From NCBI GenBank assembly GCA_929200535.1, contig CAKMZV010000002.1, forward strand, positions 11,537-75,536: a stretch of DNA of 64,000 nucleotides, read 5' to 3'. Below the pieces are notes generated by a model. It did no database searches, was not told the origin of the DNA, and worked only from the letters and a program-made list of their open reading frames with translations. This document shows positions 35,493 through 37,664 of this stretch, in pieces. Source of the stretch: an uncultured Gammaproteobacteria bacterium. GTDB taxonomy: Bacteria; Pseudomonadota; Gammaproteobacteria; CAKMZV01. Each line of letters begins with the position of its first letter. Position 1 is the first letter of the stretch. The translations under genes were made by a program, and so were the position numbers.

Positions 35493-36032
35493 ATGAAAAA
35501 AAATGTTTATTTAACTAGCCTAGCCCTTCTTACAACTACCGTTGTTTTTTCACCAGCATCTGCTGATGATCAAGGAAAGGGGCATTATGACCATCAATAT
35601 TCAGAAGGTGGTGATTATCATGGTAAAAGAAAGCATCATCGTAAAGGTCATTTTTTTAAACGTTTAGATGATAACAAGGATGGCTTTATTAGCTTAGAAG
35701 AGCATAAGAAGGTCGTGGAGCATATTTTTAAACGTTTAGATGATAATAAAGATAACATTATCAGCAAAGATGAACGACCCAAACGCCATAAAAATAGACT
35801 TATGATGTTTGGTTTTACCGCGGATGATGAACCCACCAAAGAAGCCGTTCTTGAAAAGTTAACAAAACACCATAAAGAAGCAGATACAAATAATGATGGG
35901 AAATTAACTCGAGATGAACTACAATCACATTACAAAAACCAGCGTTTTAAGCGTATCGATGCAAATCAAGATGGTAGCATTAGCAAAGAAGAGTTTTTAA
36001 ACTTTAAAGCAAATAAAAAAGCAAAAAAATAA
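35493..36032 (+). CDS. Exported EF-hand calcium-binding protein (four EF loops)
   Basis: The 179-residue protein has a signal peptide with cleavage near SPASA-DD (residue 24), a His-rich stretch (31-52), and four 12-residue EF-hand loops starting at D59, D83, D131 and D156, each with D-x-[DN]-x-D spacing and a terminal Glu. Loop 2 has Asn instead of Gly at position 6. It should bind calcium in the periplasm. A second EF-hand gene, an ECF sigma factor and a small membrane protein follow, so it may be the output or sensor of that set. No closer homologue is recognised. Confidence 0.85.
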   Translation: MKKNVYLTSLALLTTTVVFSPASADDQGKGHYDHQYSEGGDYHGKRKHHRKGHFFKRLDDNKDGFISLEEHKKVVEHIFKRLDDNKDNIISKDERPKRHKNRLMMFGFTADDEPTKEAVLEKLTKHHKEADTNNDGKLTRDELQSHYKNQRFKRIDANQDGSISKEEFLNFKANKKAKK

Positions 36033-36045
36033 TTGATGTATGTCC

Positions 36046-36124
36046 ACGCCCCCTTGTTCCTGAGATCTTTGCAAAAAAGATATGCCAAGGTCTCTGCTTA
36101 TGAACAAAGGGGCGTTTGTTTTTA
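36046..36124 (+). terminator. Intrinsic terminator with a mini-element inside its loop
   Basis: CGCCCCCTTGTTC (36047-36059) pairs with GAACAAAGGGGCG (36102-36114) at 12 of 13 positions, followed by TTTGTTTTTA. The loop of 42 bases consists mostly of a 33-bp mini-element at 36062-36094. Without it the loop would be about 9 bases, a normal terminator for the upstream EF-hand gene. Activity with the enlarged, itself self-pairing loop is uncertain. Confidence 0.7.
36062..36094. mobile_element. 33-bp mini-element nested in a terminator
   Basis: The element reads GAGATCTTTGCAAAAAAG at one end and GCCAAGGTCTC at the other, two or three changes away from the consensus. The flanking pentamers (TTCCT and TGCTT) match only at three of five positions, so the target duplication has decayed or is absent. 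Confidence 0.6.
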
Positions 36125-36151
36125 TGAGATTTCTACCTAAAAGGATATATT

Positions 36152-36733
36152 ATGAGCAACCCCCCTCCCTCTATACCACTAAAAAGAAAAAAAGTAGCCC
36201 TATATCTTTTCTTGAGCTTTTCGGTTGGTTTAATCCTTGGTGGAACAATTGTCGGCACCTCTTTTTATCATCATTTTTTTAACGAAAAACCCTGGAAGAA
36301 AGGGCATCAAAAACGCCCTCATCATTCTCTAAGATTGTTTAAACACATTGATAAAAAACCTCAAGATGGTGTGCTTAGGTTAGAAGAGATAGTAACCTTT
36401 GGCGAAAAACTTTTTATTCGTTTGGATGATAATGACGATGGCTATATCTCGCCTTCAGAAGCACCCAATCGCCCCCCCAAACATTGGCAAAAAGAATTTT
36501 TAGAAATCTTTAAACCAGGAGAGCAAACTTCTAAAAAAAAGTTTCTAAGCAGTATTCAAAATCTATTTAATAACAATGATATCAACCAAGATAAGCAAAT
36601 TACACCACGAGAAATGCAACAAAGTTTTAAGAATCGCTTATTTTCTAAAATAGATACCAATCAAGATGGTGTGCTTTCTAAAGAGGAGTTTTTAAATCAT
36701 CGCCCTCGATTCCGTAGAAAGCGCTCAAAATAA
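36152..36733 (+). CDS. Membrane-anchored EF-hand protein
   Basis: The 193-residue protein has a short cytoplasmic N-terminus, one transmembrane helix (residues ~15-40, YLFLSFSVGLILGGTIVG) and a periplasmic domain with EF-hand loops starting at D92, D143 and D168, plus a degenerate one near D67. A good ribosome site (AAGGATAT) precedes the ATG. It lies 17 bp before the ECF sigma gene. The topology, an N-terminal anchor with a periplasmic ligand-binding domain, is that expected of a sensor feeding a sigma factor, so a calcium-sensing role is plausible but unproven. Confidence 0.8.
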   Translation: MSNPPPSIPLKRKKVALYLFLSFSVGLILGGTIVGTSFYHHFFNEKPWKKGHQKRPHHSLRLFKHIDKKPQDGVLRLEEIVTFGEKLFIRLDDNDDGYISPSEAPNRPPKHWQKEFLEIFKPGEQTSKKKFLSSIQNLFNNNDINQDKQITPREMQQSFKNRLFSKIDTNQDGVLSKEEFLNHRPRFRRKRSK

Positions 36734-36750
36734 CAAAAGCACGATTACTT

Positions 36751-37326
36751 ATGCTAACCCCCCTCCTCTCTGACAATCGTCTAATAGAGAGGATTACCAA
36801 TGGAAATGCAAAGGCTTTTGATGAATTGGTAAAACGTTATGAAAAAAGGTTGTATTATTTTTGCTTTCATCTTTTACAAAACAGAGAAAATGCCGAAGAT
36901 ATTGTACAGCACACCTTTTTAAAATTTTGGCAAAATCCTGATGCTTTTGATACCAATCAAAAGACCCTTTTTTCTACTTGGATTTACCAAGTCGCAAAAA
37001 ATAAATGCACCGATCATTTTAGAAAAAATAATCGAATGCTCCTCGGAGAAGACAATGATTTAGCAGAAAATATAGAAAAAACCCATACGGCAACAGAAAA
37101 ATCTCAGCCCGATATACACTATGAACAGCAAGAACAGTATAAAATACTTCAAAAGGCAATAAATACTTTGGAGGAAGATGCACGCACAATTGTTATTCTT
37201 TTTCATTTGCAAAACAAAAGCCAAGAAGAGGTGGCACAAATTATGCAAATGAACAAACGAATGGTTGAGGGACATCTATACAGAGCAAGAGCCAAAATGA
37301 AATTATTTTTGCAAGAGGATTTATGA
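36751..37326 (+). CDS. ECF-type RNA polymerase sigma factor
   Basis: The 191-residue protein has sigma region 2 (FDELVKRYEKRLYYFCFHLL, AEDIVQHTFLKFWQ, STWIYQVAKNKCTDHFR) and region 4 (ARTIVILFHLQNKSQEEVAQIM, GHLYRARAKMK), with no regions 1 or 3. Such factors redirect RNA polymerase to stress or envelope genes. It overlaps the next gene by 4 nt. EF-hand proteins upstream and a small membrane protein downstream suggest it responds to a signal outside the cytoplasmic membrane, perhaps calcium. Confidence 0.92.
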   Translation: MLTPLLSDNRLIERITNGNAKAFDELVKRYEKRLYYFCFHLLQNRENAEDIVQHTFLKFWQNPDAFDTNQKTLFSTWIYQVAKNKCTDHFRKNNRMLLGEDNDLAENIEKTHTATEKSQPDIHYEQQEQYKILQKAINTLEEDARTIVILFHLQNKSQEEVAQIMQMNKRMVEGHLYRARAKMKLFLQEDL

Positions 37327-37664
37327 AAAAAAACTTATACCAGAAAATTAACAATGCCGTTCCAGCAAATAGCGAGAACTATCGAAAAAACTTGCGACTA
37401 ATTACGCAAAATCCGCAACAACATTCTCGTGCATTAGCTCCTTCATTAGGAGCGATTTTTATGCAGGTCGGATTGGCTGCTTCGGTGGTTTGTTTTGTTT
37501 TCTCTTTCTCCCTCAATGTATTTTTGACCAATATAAAAACCAATGATAATTCGGCATTAGAAATCTCTCAGTCTTTTTTTAATTCTTCTACAGAATCTCT
37601 ATTAACAGACCTTGGCAGCGATGACTCCGCAACCGTTGATCAAATCCTGAGCTTCTCTCAGTAA
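37323..37664 (+). CDS. Small single-pass membrane protein, candidate anti-sigma factor
   Basis: The 113-residue protein overlaps the sigma gene by 4 nt, the usual coupling for anti-sigma factors. It has a cytoplasmic N-terminal half (residues 1-45, polar), one transmembrane helix (~48-69, [22 protein letters not shown]) and a short periplasmic tail rich in Ser and Asp. I see no zinc-binding HxxxCxxC motif and recognise no named family. The anti-sigma role is inferred from position and topology only. Confidence 0.6.

Follow-up and report, generated by a model that had tools for sequence, protein, structure and literature searches.

An EF-hand/ECF sigma factor locus of an uncultured gammaproteobacterium as a probable divergent member of a conserved proteobacterial module

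Four consecutive genes in the window, a 64,000-nucleotide stretch of DNA from an uncultured Gammaproteobacteria bacterium, encode two EF-hand proteins, an ECF sigma factor and a single-pass membrane protein (Table 1). Comparison with other proteobacteria suggests, with moderate confidence, that this locus represents a divergent form of an ECF module found in proteobacteria, with a core of exported EF-hand protein, ECF sigma factor and single-pass anti-sigma factor, probably working as proposed below. The association of EF-hand and sigma genes is real and conserved, although rare and poorly studied, with one published example. The window carries a divergent variant of it, with a distinctive membrane-anchored EF-hand protein.

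Table 1. Features of the EF-hand/ECF sigma factor locus (positions in the window).
Feature	Coordinates	Strand	Evidence
EFh1 promoter region, divergent intergenic (TPMT on −, EFh1 on +)	35357..35492	+	PSSM scan
EFh1, 179 aa, exported, four canonical EF-hands	35493..36032	+	Pfam EF-hand_5, 1e-20
Terminator-like hairpin with T tract, EFh1/EFh2 gap	36047..36123	+	MFE and shuffles
EFh2, 193 aa, N-terminal membrane anchor, EFh1 paralogue	36152..36733	+	EF-hand_6, 6e-13
ECF sigma factor, 191 aa	36751..37326	+	Sigma70_r2, 5e-21; Sigma70_r4_2, 7e-13
Probable anti-sigma factor, 113 aa, single TM	37323..37664	+	Position, sigma overlap, topology

All four open reading frames were found at the place and on the strand given in the original prediction, which had described a row of exported EF-hand protein, anchored EF-hand protein, ECF sigma factor and single-pass protein. 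It was mistaken in placing EF-hand genes on both sides of the sigma gene: EFh1 and EFh2 both lie upstream, and no EF-hand gene was found downstream of sigma at the locus. The gap between EFh2 and the sigma gene is 17 bp, and trxB (identified by sequence) begins 4 bp beyond the gene of the 113-aa protein.

EFh1 probably has its own terminator. The hairpin that follows it has a minimum free energy of −38.6 kcal/mol (z = −4.3), matched by none of 200 shuffled sequences. With so strong a hairpin between EFh1 and EFh2, it is improbable that all four genes form one simple operon. The inner segment of this hairpin (36060–36096) forms a palindrome resembling an IS end, CTGAGATCTTTGCAAAAAAGATATGCCAAGGTCTCTG, and five more near-copies occur elsewhere in the genome (L037–L041); L041 is apparently a very short palindromic remnant. 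An Rfam scan of positions 35300–37800 gave no match.

Relatives were surveyed because an EF-hand gene and a sigma gene could have met once by accident. A search of 274 genomes of the class with EFh1 revealed four further families (G025, G093, G226 and G255) in which an EF-hand gene directly precedes the gene of an ECF sigma factor, and a fifth family (G032) was found through a sigma search. A profile built from the sigma factors of these families and of the window was then run on 369 gammaproteobacterial genomes. The scores were gapped: ten loci reached at least 188 bits, three lay at 158–177 bits and no other exceeded 127 bits. An EF-hand gene lay immediately upstream of sigma in all ten best loci, four of which were outside the profile (three from profile families and one, G300, from a new family). 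No EF-hand neighbour was found at the three next-best loci or at 17 lower-scoring loci, mostly RpoE-type controls. The adjacency of EF-hand and sigma genes thus recurs in unrelated families, beyond chance.

Phylum-wide, the best 29 other loci included 19 with an EF-hand gene upstream and 24 with a Metal_resist gene (PF13801, CnrX-like) downstream; because the ranking rested on resemblance to EF-linked sigma factors, these fractions describe that group and not all ECF sigma factors. The usual order was EF-hand protein, sigma factor, single-TM anti-sigma factor and CnrX-like metal sensor. One locus (L107) has two exported EF-hand genes in tandem. The annotation of plasmid pC of Ensifer adhaerens lists the sigma factor, a hypothetical protein and a 'periplasmic heavy metal sensor', and no EF-hand protein. 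Absence of EF-hand genes from most neighbourhoods had been named in advance as grounds against the system, as had a sigma group with a different partner. The outcome is mixed: EF-hand genes stand in most close neighbourhoods, gammaproteobacterial and phylum-wide, but the nearest sigma group usually has Metal_resist as a further, different partner. In that group the CnrX-like Metal_resist protein is the better candidate sensor.

The window genome gave no Metal_resist (PF13801) match genome-wide, and the domain is also missing from several gammaproteobacterial relatives. This genome is the sole member of its order in the comparison set. No close relatives with the same four-gene order were found, and a related-locus search with the window locus returned distant sigma factors only.

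A common ECF-type promoter accompanies the module in most relatives. The motif GACGGR-N13..16-CGTT was present upstream of the EF-hand gene in 20 of 27 relatives (shuffled mean 0.06, maximum 2), and in nearly all cases the spacing was 15 (GACGGA-N15-CGTT). The same promoter was found upstream of the sigma gene in E. adhaerens, Rhizobium tropici and Burkholderia cenocepacia, and several gammaproteobacterial relatives were without a promoter of the GACGGA type. The promoter of the general stress sigma factor EcfG, GGAAC-N16/17-CGTT, differs in spacing from this motif. According to a PSSM scan, neither EFh1 nor EFh2 is preceded by a recognisable family promoter. Weak promoter-like sites before EFh1, at 35376 (score 1.2) and 35442 (score 0.1), compare with scores of 20–30 for family sites and rank 112 and 170 in the window, which is not above chance.

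Some further features of these loci were recorded. GACGGA-N15-CGTT is a mark of the EF-hand/metal-sensor sigma group as a whole (for example L067, L112, L119, L132 and L140–L142). Second promoter copies, about 1.5–1.7 kb downstream of the sigma start, occur in the f219 genomes, R. tropici and B. cenocepacia and point to further target genes. At the B. cenocepacia locus (L141, 2181–2525) the promoter-proximal gene encodes an exported YXWGXW-repeat protein that replaces the EF-hand protein and is followed by a DUF1800-like gene; the Ensifer module adjoins DUF1501/DUF1800 genes.

The original prediction had called the system undescribed. However, an EF-hand/ECF pair of Caulobacter vibrioides, CaBP–SigV (CCNA_02838/CCNA_02837), was published in 2026 (PMC13171946), and with the same gene order and a fitting promoter it means that this kind of system has already been described. 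Overproduction of SigV raises cabp expression and its deletion lowers it, whereas CaBP raises sigV modestly, so that SigV drives cabp far more strongly than the reverse; both genes are reported to be induced by calcium limitation and by acid (PMC13171946). The cabp promoter, as determined by 5′ RACE, reads GGAAA-N13-CGTTCA (PMC13171946). Written as GGA-N15-CGTT, it has the exact spacing of the relatives' motif, which suggests that SigV/CaBP may be a member of the EF-hand/metal-sensor sigma group. A published primer for the Caulobacter locus gave no match in 30 genomes of a candidate family. As in the window, a gene for a Sec-exported multi-EF-hand protein lies directly upstream of an ECF sigma gene; unlike the window, Caulobacter has one EF-hand gene and no membrane-anchored EF-hand protein. 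The functional link predicted between EF-hand proteins and ECF sigma factor is thus supported by the conserved adjacency, the common promoter and the reported induction of the Caulobacter pair by calcium limitation.

A regulatory link of EF-hand proteins to ECF sigma factors is also known for EfhP (PA4107) of Pseudomonas aeruginosa, like the window proteins a periplasmic EF-hand protein. EfhP affects calcium-dependent expression, including that of many ECF sigma factors, and its authors suggest that it contacts anti-sigma factors (PMC11559002).

The window sigma factor is best called a divergent relative of the NCBIfam model NF004113 (PRK05602) rather than a filed member, judging from its sequence. 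This was its best model by a small margin, at 123 bits, far below the membership cut-off of 208 bits; it was also the top model of all six relatives tested, which scored 154–270 bits. With profiles built without it, the score of the window sigma factor was 153 bits with the EF-hand/metal-sensor group and 105 bits with RpoE, compared with 114–208 and 57–84 bits, respectively, for left-out members of the group. Against the RpoE model TIGR02939 it reached 89.8 bits, below the cut-off of 236 bits. In the sigma tree it lay outside the RpoE clade, on a long branch and without a stable place. Genome G673, of the same class as the window, grouped there with B. cenocepacia, which suggests that the class is Gammaproteobacteria as GTDB defines it. 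In a single-sequence search RpoE-type sigma factors scored as high as EF-linked ones.

NF004113 sigma factors, such as that of E. adhaerens pC, share with the window a single-TM protein after sigma and, in most cases, an EF-hand gene upstream. The window differs from these systems in lacking Metal_resist and a recognisable family promoter, and in its duplicated and anchored EF-hand gene. The two best named plasmid matches to the window sigma factor (Azospirillum) were set aside, as their surroundings are flagellar and contain no EF-hand genes. The genome encodes two sigma factors of ECF-like type in all. The other, unrelated to that of the window, has 168 aa (L137, 1477–1983; G000:C18) and stands ahead of a 223-aa protein that has a single hydrophobic segment (L137, 2192–2863); the two are probably another sigma/anti-sigma pair.

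The four EF loops of EFh1, DDNKDGFISLEE, DDNKDNIISKDE, DTNNDGKLTRDE and DANQDGSISKEE, are all canonical, and a crude reading of its N-terminus, MKKNVYLTSLALLTTTVVFSPASA, indicates a Sec-type signal peptide. EFh2 is a paralogue of EFh1 (38% identity over 149 aa) with three usable loops and a degenerate first one. Its N-terminus is rich in K/R and continues into one hydrophobic anchor at about residues 14–36; the structure model predicts a helix at residues 14–30 and paired EF-hands, with a pLDDT of about 75–85 in the EF regions. By eye, the EF-hand N-termini of the 27 relatives resemble ordinary export signals, unlike the anchored EFh2. EF-hand_5 matches in the 1.97-Mb genome (E ≤ 0.01) were confined to EFh1 and EFh2, and a search of the 369 genomes with EFh2 returned only EFh2 itself, EFh1 and generic EF-hand proteins.

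Two other identities were considered for the EF-hand proteins. To the eye, the EFh2 anchor looks similar to that of Metal_resist proteins (S..xx.L.G...G). Its PSSM score, however, was reached in 20 of 411 hydrophobic segments (including that of EFh2) and in 401 of 5000 shuffles; with this resemblance non-significant, a Metal_resist protein with a swapped domain was rejected as unproven. Lanmodulin (LanM), a small periplasmic four-EF-hand protein, ranked first, though weakly, among the structural matches to the EFh2 model. It is defined by at least 135 bits to NF053806 and a proline at EF-loop position 2. The window proteins scored 43.5 and 28.4 bits, and their loops begin with DD, DD, DT and DA (EFh1) and DD, DI and DT (EFh2), without a position-2 proline; lanmodulin identity was therefore rejected.

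We infer anti-sigma activity for the 113-aa protein, whose start overlaps the sigma stop codon and which has one hydrophobic segment (residues 37–71). It matched neither EF-hand nor any accepted family. Its score to the anti-sigma profile of the relatives was reached by 8–45 of 1000 shuffles, BLAST gave no alignment to the nearest short-form anti-sigma factor, and its structure model was of unusably low quality (pLDDT 52). The anti-sigma factors of relatives (L067, L068, L069, L105, L111 and others) have a common N-terminal motif, YGAD..RWP..ER.AA; it is uncurated, corresponds to no Pfam family in the one anti-sigma factor tested and is absent from short forms.

Short membrane anti-sigma factors hold ECF sigma factors, and in the CnrYXH system release is governed by a membrane-anchored periplasmic sensor; a structural summary is available (PMC7406223). 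CnrYXH of Cupriavidus metallidurans is like the window locus in combining an ECF sigma factor with a short membrane anti-sigma factor, a probable one in the window. The membrane-anchored periplasmic metal sensor CnrX serves as a working analogy for EFh2, although it belongs to another fold family. The window differs in that the CnrX-type Metal_resist sensor is absent, and CnrH (4cxf), found among the structural relatives of the window sigma factor, is not the closest solved one, ranking behind SigW and RpoE.

The most economical reading is a sigma/anti-sigma module that regulates itself and has EF-hand proteins as outputs, with EFh2 possibly replacing the sensor. The 113-aa membrane protein would keep sigma at the inner membrane until an envelope signal sets it free; that signal would be a shift in the free calcium of the periplasm, or a stress from acid or divalent metals that upsets this calcium. 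Freed sigma would then transcribe its own locus, including the EF-hand genes, and the EF-hand proteins would bind periplasmic calcium and feed back. As a membrane-anchored paralogue, EFh2 would be the best candidate for the place of the missing CnrX-like sensor. For the window locus we infer autoregulation, with calcium as the putative input signal and EFh2 as the putative sensor. A more specific version, in which EFh2 is a transmembrane calcium sensor that replaces the CnrX-like sensor and gates the anti-sigma factor directly, would make the locus a self-contained periplasmic-calcium ECF system with EF-hand output; we regard it as tentative and rather doubtful.

It is also possible, if somewhat unlikely, that the EF-hand proteins are only outputs, acting as calcium or metal buffers of the periplasm, while the 113-aa protein itself senses general envelope stress and calcium is not the input. 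The control of cabp by SigV, far stronger than the effect of CaBP on sigV, suggests that the EF-hand protein may act as an output and not as the sensor, and induction by acid fits the same explanation (PMC13171946). In the relatives, moreover, the EF-hand gene is promoter-proximal under a sigma-type promoter, and in B. cenocepacia the YXWGXW-repeat protein takes its place. However, cabp and sigV are reported to respond to calcium limitation, and a mere soluble buffer would need neither the anchor of EFh2 nor its position beside sigma.

The metal sensor common in the nearest sigma group (24 of 29 loci) and the presence of CnrH among the structural relatives would suit a heavy-metal (Ni/Co/Cd) switch of the CnrYXH type, with EF-hands that bind metals other than calcium. 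We consider this improbable, since the window genome has no Metal_resist gene, the EF loops are of canonical calcium type and CnrH is outranked by SigW and RpoE. Chance proximity of unrelated EF-hand genes to an ECF sigma factor of the usual RpoE-like kind, or to an orphan one, would be consistent with the long branch of the window sigma factor, the equally high scores of RpoE-type sigma factors in a single-sequence search and the failure to find the family promoter at the locus. Nevertheless, the EF-hand group outscores RpoE by 48 bits in the profile comparison, no EF-hand gene was found in the genome outside this locus, EFh2 is separated from sigma by only 17 bp, and none of the 17 RpoE-type controls has an EF-hand neighbour, which makes this account highly improbable.

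How periplasmic calcium is connected to transcription in bacteria is poorly understood. For the Caulobacter pair, whose membrane link or anti-sigma factor was left as a question mark by its authors (PMC13171946), the present survey offers candidates for that link, namely the conserved anti-sigma factor and the CnrX-like sensor, together with a conserved promoter. The window locus, as a reduced version with an anchored EF-hand protein, would make calcium gating of an anti-sigma factor directly testable.
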